Positions 24,713-34,733 of a DNA stretch of 34,733 bases are shown piece after piece. Made by a program: the position numbers and the translations under genes. Below the pieces are notes generated by a model that was not told where the DNA came from, did no database searches, and worked only from the letters and a program-made list of their open reading frames with translations. The DNA lies in NCBI GenBank assembly GCA_015062925.1, contig SUTL01000012.1, forward strand, positions 1-34,733. The letters are read 5' to 3'. How positions within the stretch are numbered: the first letter of the stretch is position 1; every line of letters begins with the position of its first letter. Source of the stretch: Methanobrevibacter thaueri. Its GTDB lineage: Archaea; Methanobacteriota; Methanobacteria; Methanobacteriales; Methanobacteriaceae.

Positions 24713-25582
24713 TCAGAGCATAGGTTTAAAACCCTGATTTTCAATGTCTTTTTGAGCATTATTAATTAAAAATTTAATAAATTCGTCAACCTCACTTTTA
24801 TCATCATTCACTTTAACAATACTAATCACATGCTGAGTATCATACTTTAAAAGATCATTTCCTTTAAAATAACTGGCATTTAAGAATGTATATAAATTCT
24901 TGGAATTGCGAACAATCTTAAAAGCGTCAAATTGAGAATTAACACTATCTTTAATATTATATTCAATATCATAATGATTCAAACTGTTCCATGCAAGTCT
25001 TTGAGCTGAACCATTAACATTTATAAAATCAAGTCCTTCCAAATCAGAAATACTGTCGATTTTTTTGGATTGGGGGCTTGACACTAAAACAAGATAATCA
25101 TAAGCTATTGGCATGAAGTTAATGTCACGTTCATATGCAATTAACGGATCATCCAGTGTAAGTATATCTACAGCTCCTCTTTTTGCAAGTTCAAATGCAT
25201 CTTCATCTGAACTGCTGTATATGTTAATATCAAATGGTGTGGATATGCTTTCTATTAATCCGGTGCTTATGTGACCTCCTACAATATTGATTTTTGGGGT
25301 TTTTTCAATTTGTATTAGGTATTTTTTGAATTCTTCAAGTAATTTTATTCCAGTTTCTGTTAATTCAGTACCGTTCCCTACTTTTTTTGTGATTTTTTCC
25401 CCTAATTTTTCTTCTGCTTTAAGTATTCTTTTGTTGAATACTGTGTGAGATATGTTTAGTTTTTTTGCTGATTTTCTTTGGGATTTGGTTTGTGATAGTG
25501 AATTTAGACTTTGATATAGTTTATAATCGTATATTTCATTATTTATTTTTAAACTGATTAGTCCTTTACTTTGAAATTTCAT
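24713..25582 (-). CDS. ModE/LysR-like regulator with substrate-binding domain
   Basis: A 289-residue DNA-binding protein. Residues about 20-75 form a ModE/LysR-type winged helix-turn-helix (SQRKSAKKLNISHTVFNKRI, then the wing GNGTELTETGIKLLEEF). About 95-285 resembles a type 2 periplasmic-binding fold used as a ligand sensor (INIVGGHIST, AKRGAVDILTLDDPL, LVLVSSPQSKKI). Such archaeal proteins are usually linked with molybdate or tungstate, but the ligand here is inferred from the fdh, moaA, mobB and fwd neighbours. No Shine-Dalgarno precedes ATG 25582. A TATA-like sequence about 29 bp upstream predicts a leaderless message. It diverges from the hexuloisomerase gene across 49 bp. Confidence 0.8.
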   Translation of the reverse strand: MKFQSKGLISLKINNEIYDYKLYQSLNSLSQTKSQRKSAKKLNISHTVFNKRILKAEEKLGEKITKKVGNGTELTETGIKLLEEFKKYLIQIEKTPKINIVGGHISTGLIESISTPFDINIYSSSDEDAFELAKRGAVDILTLDDPLIAYERDINFMPIAYDYLVLVSSPQSKKIDSISDLEGLDFINVNGSAQRLAWNSLNHYDIEYNIKDSVNSQFDAFKIVRNSKNLYTFLNASYFKGNDLLKYDTQHVISIVKVNDDKSEVDEFIKFLINNAQKDIENQGFKPML

Positions 25583-25631
25583 TAATTATATATAAAATTG
25601 TAATCATATATTAAATATTGATATTTGATTT
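25583..25631. promoter_or_regulatory. Shared divergent promoter
   Basis: This 49-bp spacer serves both genes. TTATATATAAAA (about 25,586-25,596) and TATATTAAATATT (about 25,606-25,618) can each act as TATA boxes, in either direction. TGTAATCAT at about 25,600 equals half of the palindrome found before fwdH. Confidence 0.45.
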
Positions 25632-26237
25632 ATGGGTTTAGATAATATGGAAATAATGAAAACCTCTATTAGGGCTATAATGGATAATATTGAAAGTGCT
25701 GAAGAATTATTAGATGAAGATATTATTAATGAATTTGAGAATATTATTATTGAATCTGAAAATGTATTTGTTACTGGTGCGGGAAGATCCGGTCTTGCTG
25801 CTAAGGCTTTTGCTATGAGATTGATGCATTTAGGTTTAAGTGCTTATGTTGTTGGGGAAACTATTTCTCCTGCTATTAATGCTGAGGATTGTATTATTGC
25901 TATTTCAGGTTCTGGTGAAACTAATACTATTGTTTCTGCTGCTAAGATTGCTAAAAAAAGAGGTTCTAAAGTTTTGGCTGTTACTTCTTATCCTGAGTCT
26001 AGTTTAGGTCAGTTGTGTGATGGTTATCTTCTTGTTAAGGGGAGGATGCAGCAGGAGAAGGATGATAAGAATTATATGAAGCGTCAGATTAATGGTAATT
26101 ATACTTCTTTAACTCCTTTGGGGACTGCTTTTGAACTTACTACTTTGGTGTTTTTGGATGCTATTGTTTCTGAGTTGATGGAGAAGATGCATCAGACTGA
26201 GAGTGATTTGAAGGCTAGACACACTGTTTTGGAATAG
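25632..26237 (+). CDS. hxlB: 6-phospho-3-hexuloisomerase
   Basis: SIS-domain sugar isomerase of 201 residues that interconverts hexulose 6-phosphate (3-keto) and fructose 6-phosphate. In archaea lacking the oxidative pentose phosphate pathway the ribulose monophosphate route runs backwards to make ribulose 5-phosphate, which is its likely role here. The SIS core is VFVTGAGRSGLAAKAFAMRL and IAISGSGETNT; a C-terminal RHTVLE ends the helix. The partner hexulose-phosphate synthase is not in the window. The start is uncertain: ATG 25632, 25647 and 25656 all fit and none has a strong ribosome site. Codons become almost all G- or T-ending toward the 3' end. Confidence 0.92.
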   Translation: MGLDNMEIMKTSIRAIMDNIESAEELLDEDIINEFENIIIESENVFVTGAGRSGLAAKAFAMRLMHLGLSAYVVGETISPAINAEDCIIAISGSGETNTIVSAAKIAKKRGSKVLAVTSYPESSLGQLCDGYLLVKGRMQQEKDDKNYMKRQINGNYTSLTPLGTAFELTTLVFLDAIVSELMEKMHQTESDLKARHTVLE

Positions 26238-26553: not shown

Positions 26554-26653
26554 TTTATCATTACATGAAATATTACTAAATCTTAGTATTTAAATATTTC
26601 TTTTTAATTCTAATGATAAATCCTTTTTATATAAAAAAACAATATATAAAACC

Positions 26654-31087: not shown

Positions 31088-32017
31088 TTAGGAATTATAT
31101 GGTTCTCGTTTATTAATTCCTGTGATGAATATTTTTTCCAGTTCTTCTTCACTAACACCGTTTCTTACATGTGATATTAGTTCGACTAGATTATCGTTTC
31201 TTAAAAGGCATGGTTTGATTTTTCCGTCAGGTGTTATTCTTAATCTGGAGCAATTTGCACAGAAGGTAGCATTGTCAACTGGTTTAACTACTTCGATTTC
31301 TCCACCGTCAATGTAATATTTTTTACGTCCCTGCATAAACTTACGTTCACGCACATCACTAGCTATATCACTTAATCTTTCTTCAACCATATCTAACTTA
31401 TAATGATAATCCTTACTGAACTTGTCATTATCACAGTTTTCACTTTCAATTAATTCAATAAGCTGAAGAACAATATCATTATCCCTGCAGAATTCGAACA
31501 TGTCTTTAATTTCGTTTTGATTAATGTCTTTCATTATAACCATATTAATTTTAACTGGGTATAATCCGACTTCTACTGCTTTTAATATTCCTTTTTTTGC
31601 ATCTTCAAGATAATCTTTTTTTGCGATGAATTCATATGTTTTCCTGTTTAGTGTGTCTAAACTTACATTAACACGGTCGAGACCGGCTTCTTTTAGGGGT
31701 TTTGCATATTTTTCCAGTAGTATTCCGTTTGTTGTCATGGATATGTCTTTAAAATCTAGTGAGTTTATTTTTTCTACTATTTCAACTATGTCTTTTTTTA
31801 GTAGTGGTTCTCCTCCGGATAATCTTATTTTTTTAACTCCATTTTTTTTGGCGATTTTGCAGATTGTGTATAGTTCTTCTGCGTTCATTTCGTCTTTGGA
31901 TTGTACCATTCCGTCGTGATGGCAGTATAGGCAGTTTACATTACATCTGTTTGTTAGGGTTATTCTTAGTGAAAGTATTGGTCTTTCAAATTTGTCTTTA
32001 ACTACTCCTTCTAACAT
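31088..32017 (-). CDS. moaA: GTP 3',8-cyclase (molybdenum cofactor biosynthesis)
   Basis: Radical-SAM enzyme of 309 residues that starts molybdopterin synthesis from GTP. The SAM cluster motif is CNVNCLYC (C25, C29, C32), with the SGGEPLL SAM-binding segment. The C-terminal second cluster uses [19 protein letters not shown]. The end lacks the di-glycine of bacterial MoaA, as usual in archaea. ATG 32017 overlaps the mobB stop by 7 nt, so the genes are co-translated. Its product is needed by both FdhA, encoded next door, and the molybdopterin subunit of formylmethanofuran dehydrogenase. Confidence 0.96.
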
Positions 32018-33060
32018 ATGATATCATCTTCTACGGTTATTTTTATTTGTTTTATTTCATCATCGGTTTTTAATGTGTTTATTATGGAGTAGGTTGTTTC
32101 TTTTAATATTTTTGATGTGAATTCGTTTATTTCTAGGTTTGTTTTGTTGGTTTTTAGTGTGATTTTTGCATTTTTTAGGTTGTTGTTGTTTATGTTTGTT
32201 ATTTCCAGTTCTATTTGTTTTGTTTTGTCTGGTGTTTTAAGGGAGTTTATCATTCCGGTTATTGTGTTTGCTATTAGGTTTTTTGTGAATTTGTTGGTTA
32301 TTAGGTTTTTGTTGTTTATTTCTATTGTGCAGTTGTTGTTTTCTTGTTTTTGTGGTGTTTTTTCGTTTGGTATTATTAGTTCTATTTTTCCGATTTCTGT
32401 GATTCCGTAGTCTTTTAGGTTTAGTGTGTTTATTATTCCGAGGAGGTTTTGTTTTATGTAGTTGCTTACGAATTGGTTTAGTCCTATTACTTTTTCATCA
32501 ATTGACAGGTATGTGTGGATGTGGTCCAGGTCGTTTTGTGTGAGGGTTCCGTTTCTTATTTCTTGGGCTATTGTTTCGCCGTTGTTATATCCGCAGGTGT
32601 GAGTGTATAGGGTGTTGGTTATGTCGTGTGCATGTTTTTCTATTAGGTCTGCCAGTTCTTTTATGTCTTCGGGGGTTGTGTTTAGTGCGTTTATTTCTTT
32701 GATTGTATATTTGTCTTTTAGTTCGGGGGAGGTTGTTATTTTTGGGTAGTTGTAGTTTTTGTATCCTTCGATGATTATGTAGTCGTAGTTGTCGAAGTGT
32801 TTTAGTAGGTATAGTATTCTGTTTAGGTTGTGTTCTTGTGTTGTGTTGTAGAATGTTGTTGATCCTACGCCGACTACGAGGTTTGCTCCTGCTTGTTTGT
32901 GTTTCCATGTGTCGGTGTTTTCTTTATCCATTTCTATTGTGTGGTGGGAGTGTTTTATTGATGCTGTGTTGTATCCTCTTTTTGTCAGTTCTTGGATTAT
33001 TTTTGTGGTTAGTGTTGTTTTCCCGGTGTTTTTTTTCCCTACTATTGATATTATTTTCAT
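32011..33060 (-). CDS. mobB: MobB with C-terminal three-repeat extension
   Basis: P-loop GTPase linked to conversion of molybdopterin to its guanine dinucleotide form. Residues 1-150 are the MobB domain: Walker [10 protein letters not shown] (8-16), KHSHH, then [10 protein letters not shown]. Residues 150-190 form a linker, and about 190-345 hold three related units, each a helix followed by a strand: [39 protein letters not shown] and [20 protein letters not shown], the last two each followed by KQI-L/K-ITV/EIT strands. The extension makes it about twice the usual MobB length. Codons are strongly A/C-ending and rich in Asn, Thr, Lys and Ile. GGAG lies 11 nt before ATG 33060. It is the first gene of mobB-moaA. 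Confidence 0.9.
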
Positions 33061-33143: not shown

Positions 33144-33162
33144 ATGTGTAGTTACTACACAT
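33144..33162. promoter_or_regulatory. 19-bp palindromic operator upstream of mobB
   Basis: ATGTGTAGTTACTACACAT: perfect 9-bp arms around one base, 82 bp upstream of the mobB start codon and just upstream of a TATA-like ATTATAAA. It shares ATGTGTA-N5-TACACAT with the fwdH site. Confidence 0.7.
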
Positions 33163-33450
33163 ATTTTGTTTTACCTAATTTTTTTTCTTTAAATTCTTTA
33201 TTTTTTATTACTTTTCAATGATTTTTTATTAACTTTTCTGTAATTTTCATCACTATCACTTAGTGGTACTGTGCTTTAACATTATTTGATTTTACTGATT
33301 CGATGGAACTGTTTTTTATTTTATCTATATTGTTTTTTTCTTTATTTTTTTTGATTTTTATTGTTTGTAATTGGGTTTTACGAAAGAGTTTAGTGTAGTA
33401 TTCCCACAGTAATATATAAAGCTTGTGTCTTAATTCTAGTAGGCAAATAT

Positions 33451-33460
33451 ATTTATATAA
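33451..33460 (+). promoter_or_regulatory. fwdH TATA box
   Basis: ATTTATATAA, near the archaeal consensus. It predicts transcription start near 33,480, inside the palindrome at 33469-33487. Confidence 0.65.
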
Positions 33461-33468
33461 GAAAACAT

Positions 33469-33487
33469 ATGTGTAATCATTACACAT
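33469..33487. promoter_or_regulatory. 19-bp palindromic operator at the fwdH transcription start
   Basis: ATGTGTAATCATTACACAT: perfect 9-bp arms around one base, between the TATA box and the GGTGGT ribosome site (33488-33493). A protein bound here would block initiation. Confidence 0.72.
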
Positions 33488-33499
33488 GGTGGTTATTAA

Positions 33500-33958
33500 A
33501 TGCCAAAACATATTGCATCTGGTCTAAAATATTTGGCTGCGGTCAAGTTAAAAGATGCAGGCAAAAGTCACCAGGCAATAGCAAAAGAGTTAAACGTCGA
33601 TAGATCAACGATATCACACTATCTAAACGGCAGAAATCTATCATGGAACTCAATAGACGTTGCCCGAACAATAATAGACCTTTGCCCACGAGACTTCTTA
33701 AAAATGACCGAAGCAATATTTGACGAACCAGAACAGAGTCGAAAAATTGTGAATATTTGCAGAGAAAGAAATTTCGAAGTAATTATAGAAGATTCCTGTA
33801 TTGGTTGCGGCTTATGTGTAAATGCATGTACAATGAACGCTATTAACTTAGAATCATTAAAAGCCCATGCAGACTCCATACAATGTTGTGGGTGCGAGCT
33901 ATGCAGCGATGACTGCCCAACGGATTCTATAAAAATTTTGGAGATTGAATATGATTAG
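33500..33958 (+). CDS. fwdH: Helix-turn-helix ferredoxin protein, FwdH-like
   Basis: A 152-residue fusion. Residues about 10-60 form a DNA-binding helix-turn-helix (AGKSHQAIAKELNVDRSTIS, then HYLNGRNLSW). Residues about 95-150 form a ferredoxin with two 4Fe-4S motifs: C100, C103, C106, C110 (CIGCGLCVNAC) and C129, C132, C135, C139 (CCGCELCSDDC, with an extra Cys130). It heads the polyferredoxin gene fwdF and overlaps its start by 8 nt. This matches the fwdH-fwdF order of tungsten formylmethanofuran dehydrogenase operons as I know them from Methanothermobacter. A role in electron transfer is the family view; redox-dependent regulation of its own operon is my inference from the HTH and the operator. 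GGTGGT precedes ATG 33500. Confidence 0.85.
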   Translation: MPKHIASGLKYLAAVKLKDAGKSHQAIAKELNVDRSTISHYLNGRNLSWNSIDVARTIIDLCPRDFLKMTEAIFDEPEQSRKIVNICRERNFEVIIEDSCIGCGLCVNACTMNAINLESLKAHADSIQCCGCELCSDDCPTDSIKILEIEYD

Positions 33959-34733
33959 AAATTTAAAAGAGGTTAAAGACAACAACTTTGACATCACAAG
34001 ATCAGCAGAAGAAGTTAGAAACTTGTCCTTCAATGATCACACATGTCTCGGATGTGGAATTTGTGAATCAACTTGTCCAGTCGAAGCAATTACATTAAAC
34101 GCAATTGCAATCGACGCACGTCACAGATTATCCAACGACATCTACTTCAGTGGTCATGAAAAGATAGCACAAAACTTCAAACAAGACTTTGATGTTCAAA
34201 GAATAAGCATTGACGAAAGTAAATGTGTATTATGTGGTATGTGCAGTGGTTTATGTCCTGTTGATGCATTAGTATTAACAATCGACGGCGTACCAATAAA
34301 AGAAATAGACGCATATCCTCATTACAACGCTTTCTCACAAATTGATGATGATGAATGTGTTTACTGTAAAAGATGTGAAATCGCATGTCCACGTGACGCA
34401 ATAGTCATTGAAAGAATTTTACCACAACGCTCAGACTTAGTAACCGGTGAAATCGAAGTAAACGATGACGAATGTATCTACTGTGGAGTATGTGAAGAAT
34501 TATGTCCTGCAGAAGCAATCGTTGTTGATAAAGAAACTGGTAAAGAATCCATTGTCATAGACAAAGATAAATGTGTATACTGTTTAGTATGTAAAAAATC
34601 CTGTCCTACCAGTGCTATCAAAGCAATCTGTAGAGCATGTAACTATGGTGAATACGAATTAGACCCAGCAAAAGCAGTTGTTAAAGGAAACTCAGTTATT
34701 GACTCAGAACTTTGTGTATACTGTGGCTGGTGT
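33951..34733 (+). CDS. fwdF: Formylmethanofuran dehydrogenase polyferredoxin subunit (partial, 5' part)
   Basis: An ORF open to the right edge, 261 codons present. ATG 33951 overlaps the end of fwdH and has GGAG nine nt upstream. It contains five complete CX2CX2CX3CP clusters: CLGCGICESTCP (C32-C42), CVLCGMCSGLCP, CVYCKRCEIACP, CIYCGVCEELCP and CVYCLVCKKSCP. A sixth is cut at CVYCGWC, the last codons of the window. Such polyferredoxins wire the formylmethanofuran dehydrogenase complex, which reduces CO2 to formylmethanofuran in the first step of methanogenesis. Pairing with fwdH supports FwdF rather than another polyferredoxin such as MvhB. Catalytic subunits should follow beyond the edge. 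Confidence 0.88.
   Translation, partial: MIRNLKEVKDNNFDITRSAEEVRNLSFNDHTCLGCGICESTCPVEAITLNAIAIDARHRLSNDIYFSGHEKIAQNFKQDFDVQRISIDESKCVLCGMCSGLCPVDALVLTIDGVPIKEIDAYPHYNAFSQIDDDECVYCKRCEIACPRDAIVIERILPQRSDLVTGEIEVNDDECIYCGVCEELCPAEAIVVDKETGKESIVIDKDKCVYCLVCKKSCPTSAIKAICRACNYGEYELDPAKAVVKGNSVIDSELCVYCGWC

Follow-up and report, generated by a model that had tools for sequence, protein, structure and literature searches.

Cluster-bearing DNA-binding proteins that act on palindromes are well known, e.g., FNR, IscR, NsrR and SoxR. Formylmethanofuran dehydrogenase (Fwd) is the point of entry of CO2 into methanogenesis, i.e., the first step of methane formation. In the literature found, no regulator is described for Fwd; its tungsten form is reported to be constitutive, a label that concerns molybdenum and tungsten only, and molybdenum control of fmd runs through Tfx (PMC3087415). 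The Fwd complex that has been crystallised is FwdABCDFG (PMC13397495). The operon considered here starts with a further gene, fwdH. In the open-access literature, from which the original operon papers stand apart, no earlier account was found of the sites described below, or of FwdH as a regulator.

The window is the whole stretch of DNA that was analysed (34,733 nucleotides). The operon order read from it is fwdHFG..., the full operon being fwdH(FGDACB). The features on which the argument draws are the following:

24713 to 25582, minus strand: LysR-type helix-turn-helix (HTH) protein, earlier called ModE-like; HTH_1 26.0 bits, cutoff 26.6; judged not to be the binder
31088 to 32017, minus strand: moaA (GTP 3',8-cyclase); NCBIfam NF001199, 442.6 bits, cutoff 231
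32011 to 33060, minus strand: mobB-like gene, divergent from fwdH; Pfam PF03205, E 6.8e-32
33144 to 33162, no strand: site A, putative distal operator, ATGTGTAGTTACTACACAT; exact palindrome about 84 bp upstream of the mobB start
33391 to 33409, no strand: site C, imperfect copy TAGTGTAGTATTCCCACAG; conserved column block directly upstream of TATA1
33411 to 33419, plus strand: TATA1-like element, AATATATAA; conserved in the alignment of 26 regions and in Methanothermobacter, predicted promoter role
33445 to 33461, plus strand: TATA2-like element, AAATATATTTATATAAG; conserved in the genus alignment, before site B, predicted promoter role
33469 to 33487, no strand: site B, putative proximal operator, ATGTGTAATCATTACACAT; exact palindrome at -31 from the fwdH ATG
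33500 to 33958, plus strand: fwdH; Cro/CI-type HTH (residues about 3-47) and 2[4Fe-4S] ferredoxin domain (about 93-147), proposed regulator
33951 to 34733, plus strand: fwdF, 8[4Fe-4S] polyferredoxin with ferredoxin motifs, start MIRNLKE as in locus L377; incomplete at the window end

Sites A and B are perfect 19-bp palindromes with the core ATGTGTA-N5-TACACAT, just as the earlier note had described them, and they are the only two exact matches to this core in the 2,155,220-bp assembly to which the window belongs, where 0.02-0.03 would be expected by chance. Site C is a third copy, which that note had overlooked. Looser matches (3 mismatches) are no commoner in the window than the chance rate. 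The half-like copies that had also been pointed out, TGTAATCAT at 25599 and ATCATTACAT at 26557, do exist but are unremarkable, because there is no full site (three mismatches or fewer) at either position. A match with one mismatch in C11 of the same genome was rejected as a target, as it falls within the open reading frame of a repeat protein.

In the genus of the window, 60 of 67 genomes carry matches with one mismatch or none, nearly all of these matches lying between mobB and fwdH, usually in pairs about 324 bp apart. Outside this intergenic region, the match rate in the genus genomes is near that of a reversed control pattern. When 26 mobB-fwdH intergenic regions of the genus were aligned, A and B stood out as blocks of conservation, with a mean identity of 94% in the columns of site A, and C came to light as well. 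A further 100 sequences from upstream of fwdH, drawn from 14 genera, were compared, and the A/B/C array recurred in about 100 genomes of these genera; C is perfect in some of them (L149, L150, L152) and near-perfect in others (G015, G035, G043). In the fwdH upstream regions of the 14 genera, the start of site B is 28-32 bp ahead of the fwdH ATG. The distance from B up to C was scored at 86 loci and is 77-79 bp in 85 of them. For A, the position relative to fwdH is -351 to -366 in the genus and its relatives, even where mobB has been displaced. In genus g9, the A sites form a tandem pair (about -387/-411, 23-24 bp apart), and in L169 there are three, spaced by 23 bp. The motif has drifted to TGTGTG-N5-CACACA in Methanothermobacter and family f2, which have B at -28 and C at -106/-108; the counterpart of B occurs at -28 in all eight Methanothermobacter genomes, seven of which read ATGTGTGATTAACACACAT. 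Every exact match to the relaxed motif in four complete Methanothermobacter genomes is at the fwdH promoter (control 0), and G144 has one match with one mismatch away from it. The motif might have turned out to be common at random places or unconserved in relatives, either of which the earlier note would have held against it; elsewhere it occurs at or near the control rate, and it is kept upstream of fwdH. Judged by comparison of sequences, the palindromes are conserved regulatory sites, and the array marks the predicted fwdH promoter across nearly the whole class Methanobacteria.

Further elements lie around site A. A second palindrome, TTTAGGTNNACCTAAA, adjoins A in most genus members (L015-L043) and is degenerate in the window (33163-33185), and a similar TTAGGTNNNCCTAA is found upstream of an inserted ferredoxin operon. 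An inverted repeat, GTAATAC...TATTAC, is conserved farther from A (about 33195-33240 in the window; L015-L043), and a subset of species has CGATAT...ATATCG within the otherwise unconserved spacer. In seven other genomes, an insert of 190 bp brings an additional A site.

The palindromes had been read as a link between the molybdopterin genes and the fwd operon. This holds for the genus of the window, where mobB-moaA is a target, and fails in several other genera, where mobB has no motif. An operon for a 63-amino-acid ferredoxin and a polyferredoxin lies between mobB and fwdH at ten loci (L075, L078, L079, L084, L089, L099, L105, L112, L119, L124). In these roughly ten genomes, A is still at about -354 of fwdH, and in most of them the displaced mobB has its own copy of the motif; thus, the motif is truly common to mobB in this genus. 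Several other genera have mobB elsewhere and without a site, while retaining the array at fwdH, and therefore the core target is fwdH. The palindromes are putative operators of the fwdHFGDACB operon, and the array is tied to fwdH, not to the molybdopterin genes. A wider regulon of mo, mod and fdh genes, as had been proposed, did not emerge from searches of the same genome, the genus and other genomes, in which matches beyond fwdH and mobB occur at or near the control rate. The idea that such a regulon responds to metal is also weakened: with a tungsten enzyme that is reported to be constitutive and a molybdenum isoenzyme under Tfx at fmd (PMC3087415), control by molybdate or tungstate becomes less likely.

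Other genes were considered in passing. hdrA was rejected as a core target, since its upstream near-palindrome in the genus is weaker and is absent in most other genera. In the hdrA leader (L276-L305, 60-120 bp upstream), this near-palindrome, GTGTATTTACTACAT, follows a TATA box; an inverted repeat, ATATCTAATA...TATTAGATAT, is also conserved in this leader in the genus and may form a hairpin. In genus g15 (L340:1750, L342:1570), a conserved site, TGTGTGTTCACTACACA, is located about 110-130 bp upstream of a gene for a 228-amino-acid methyltransferase-like protein, and may be a local, lineage-specific extra target.

FwdH had been named as one possible regulator, and has become a serious candidate: it combines an HTH_3-class HTH with a ferredoxin domain, and the array is at its own promoter. 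The domains found are Pfam HTH_3/HTH_31 and Fer4; FwdH of the window scores 24.4 bits for HTH_3 (above the Pfam cutoff of 23), and all 20 FwdH members of alignment A2 match HTH_3 with E 0.01 or better. By Pfam score, the predicted DNA-binding domain belongs to the CI/Cro class; the structural comparison did not reach significance, the Foldseek top matches of this domain (six helices at pLDDT 90) including C.Esp1396I and HigA, none of them below E 0.001. The AF2 model of the whole protein (pLDDT 91) comprises six helices and the ferredoxin. The recognition helix is nearly invariant, though the proteins share just about 50% identity: R35, S36, T37, S39, H40, Y41, L42, G44, R45 and N46 are invariant among the 20 aligned members. 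Eight cysteines (C100, C103, C106, C110, C129, C132, C135 and C139) are also invariant, in the same chain as the HTH. Residue 34 of FwdH is N in all 12 genomes with a G/C-type site B and D in the 47 with an A/T-type site B, a covariation with exceptions (L144, L174, L326), in which clade and GC content are confounding factors. FwdH with an HTH domain occurs in 112 of the 152 genomes of the class. It does not behave as a structural subunit of the Fwd enzyme: it is absent from the solved Fwd complexes, and a search of the PDB found FwdF and FwdG chains and no FwdH chain. A protein of Candidatus Methanomethyliaceae (L230) was rejected as a relative, being an unrelated hydrogenase-linked ferredoxin.

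Genus g12, probably Methanosphaera, is the sole clean case of joint loss of fwdH and the sites. There, fwdD, B, A and C and the LysR gene are retained, whereas fwdH and fwdF are gone; none of the eight fwd upstream regions checked contains the motif, and ten g12 genomes have no match at one mismatch or fewer. Within the genus of the window, the co-occurrence of motif and fwdH is partly trivial, because the motif sits at fwdH itself, and the loss of the motif in genus-1 genomes without fwdH was dropped as evidence, as it probably reflects assembly gaps.

The spacing of the sites is more regular than the sequence between them. In genomes with mobB adjacent, A and C are 244-250 bp apart (sd 1.1 over 246 bp), while the central 120 bp between them have a mean pairwise identity of 45%, vs 40% when shuffled; the distance from A to mobB in such genomes is 25-84 bp with an sd of 9.1, though it is shorter. 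When the spacing jumps were placed on a tree built from FwdH and MobB, those of +10/+11 bp proved to have arisen separately in at least four lineages of the genus (L107, L114, L076/L077, L112), and the spacings of L143 and L147 differ by 10. Such independent jumps suggest looping on one helix face; a drift of 1-2 bases within a spacing class and turn-sized jumps between classes would fit a looped complex. The phasing argument involves about five events, picked after the data were seen, and depends on these because the A positions of g9 misfit whole turns, being a non-integral number of turns from the A sites of g1. A periodicity statistic on the pooled spacings was uninformative, and only the tree-based jumps were used.

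The reading preferred here, with moderate confidence, is that FwdH, the predicted binder, autoregulates fwdHFGDACB at A, B and C, probably by looping and repression that depend on its iron-sulfur clusters. A homodimer of FwdH, as the palindromic sites imply, would bind the operators through its Cro/CI-type HTH. C, next to the first TATA box, contacts the TATA1/BRE region; B lies over the fwdH leader and start region. Binding at these sites should therefore hamper initiation. Site A, about 250 bp upstream of C and on a fixed helix face, would strengthen the interference: FwdH at A would contact FwdH at C or B, forming a promoter loop that probably represses the operon. The two [4Fe-4S] clusters may make binding respond to iron, redox state or reduced ferredoxin (the electron donor of the Fwd enzyme); the ferredoxin domain suggests that one of these pools sets occupancy. 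In the genus of the window, mobB-moaA would join this control, because A or a separate copy is also at the mobB promoter. If this is true, redox or iron state would feed back directly on the first enzyme of the pathway in methanogens of the rumen and gut, and FwdH would be reclassified from enzyme subunit to transcription factor.

The binder could be another protein. The earlier note had put forward the LysR-type protein as one possible regulator; on this reading, molybdate or tungstate would govern its binding to the palindromes. Its gene is near fdh in the window and present in 143 of the 152 class genomes. However, it persists in 20 of 20 g12 genomes, which lack both fwdH and the sites, and it adjoins a g12 fwd operon without any site; a domain search found no molybdate-binding (TOBE/MOP) domain in it, so that it does not qualify as a ModE; its own promoter and fdhC lack a full site; and the tungsten enzyme is reported to be constitutive. 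This protein is therefore very unlikely to be the regulator. As an observation on the locus, the LysR-type gene and a divergent SIS-domain gene (24713-26237 in the window) are also found as a pair close to the fwd operon of g12, in two loci read among L368-L375, which suggests that control was rewired after the loss of FwdH. Alternatively, some unlinked regulator may bind the fwd operators while the HTH of FwdH has another role: conservation is proof of a site but does not say what binds it, and co-distribution was examined for part of the other regulators of the class. Against this stand the specificity of the motif for the fwdH promoter region, its disappearance along with fwdH in g12, and the invariant recognition helix of an HTH of the type that binds palindromes, all of which make an unlinked regulator unlikely.

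The sign of control could also be the opposite, with A, B and C as activator sites, FwdH at C recruiting TBP/TFB to the adjacent TATA and A serving as a distal enhancer. In archaea, upstream activators, e.g., Ptr2, work from a position abutting the TATA box, as C abuts TATA1, and A is also upstream of a TATA-like element of mobB. B, however, is downstream of the TATA boxes and upstream of the ATG, where repressors typically bind, and either sign is feasible for a strongly expressed essential operon; activation is rather doubtful, yet deserves consideration. Perhaps B acts instead as a hairpin in the mRNA leader, for control of translation or stability, with A and C unrelated to it. B could form an 8-bp stem directly before the Shine-Dalgarno sequence, and conservation is stronger in its right half. 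In several genomes just this half of B, next to the ribosome-binding site, survives, which tells against the preferred reading. But A and C have the same sequence and yet lie upstream of promoters, the left halves of B have been lost in many genomes, and an Rfam scan of the window gave no match, which leaves the hairpin hardly credible.

Autoregulation by FwdH can be set beside several known systems. FwdH and Tfx are both HTH proteins that head an operon for a formylmethanofuran dehydrogenase, fmdECB of Methanothermobacter in the case of Tfx, which binds near the promoter (PMC3087415). Tfx acts on the molybdenum isoenzyme and is a different protein, without a ferredoxin domain; TGTGTR-N5-YACACA has no site at tfx-fmd of G149, the best match having 3 mismatches and being inside a coding region. 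Thus, the predicted fwdH array is not the Tfx system. Compared with repressors of the lambda CI/Cro type (XRE, HTH_3) and C.Esp1396I, FwdH likewise has an HTH of the HTH_3 class, and the palindromic operators are 17-19 bp on both sides. Tandem operators are 23-24 bp apart here, and the lambda OR operators are similarly spaced. Autoregulation and loops between distant operators are likely to be shared with CI/Cro, as far as sequence can indicate. The effector part differs, being a 2[4Fe-4S] ferredoxin domain in FwdH instead of the CI C-terminal domain, and, unlike CI/Cro, FwdH belongs to an archaeon with TATA/BRE promoters, where its gene heads a core methanogenesis operon. As in FNR, IscR, NsrR and SoxR, cluster-binding cysteines and a DNA-binding domain are in one chain; none of these four is known to join a Cro/CI-type HTH to a bacterial-type 2[4Fe-4S] ferredoxin. 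It is a tentative possibility that FwdH is a class-wide ferredoxin-HTH redox sensor, coupled to the ferredoxin pool, which autoregulates entry into methanogenesis with helically phased looping between operators about 325 bp apart, i.e., an archaeal switch resembling that of CI.
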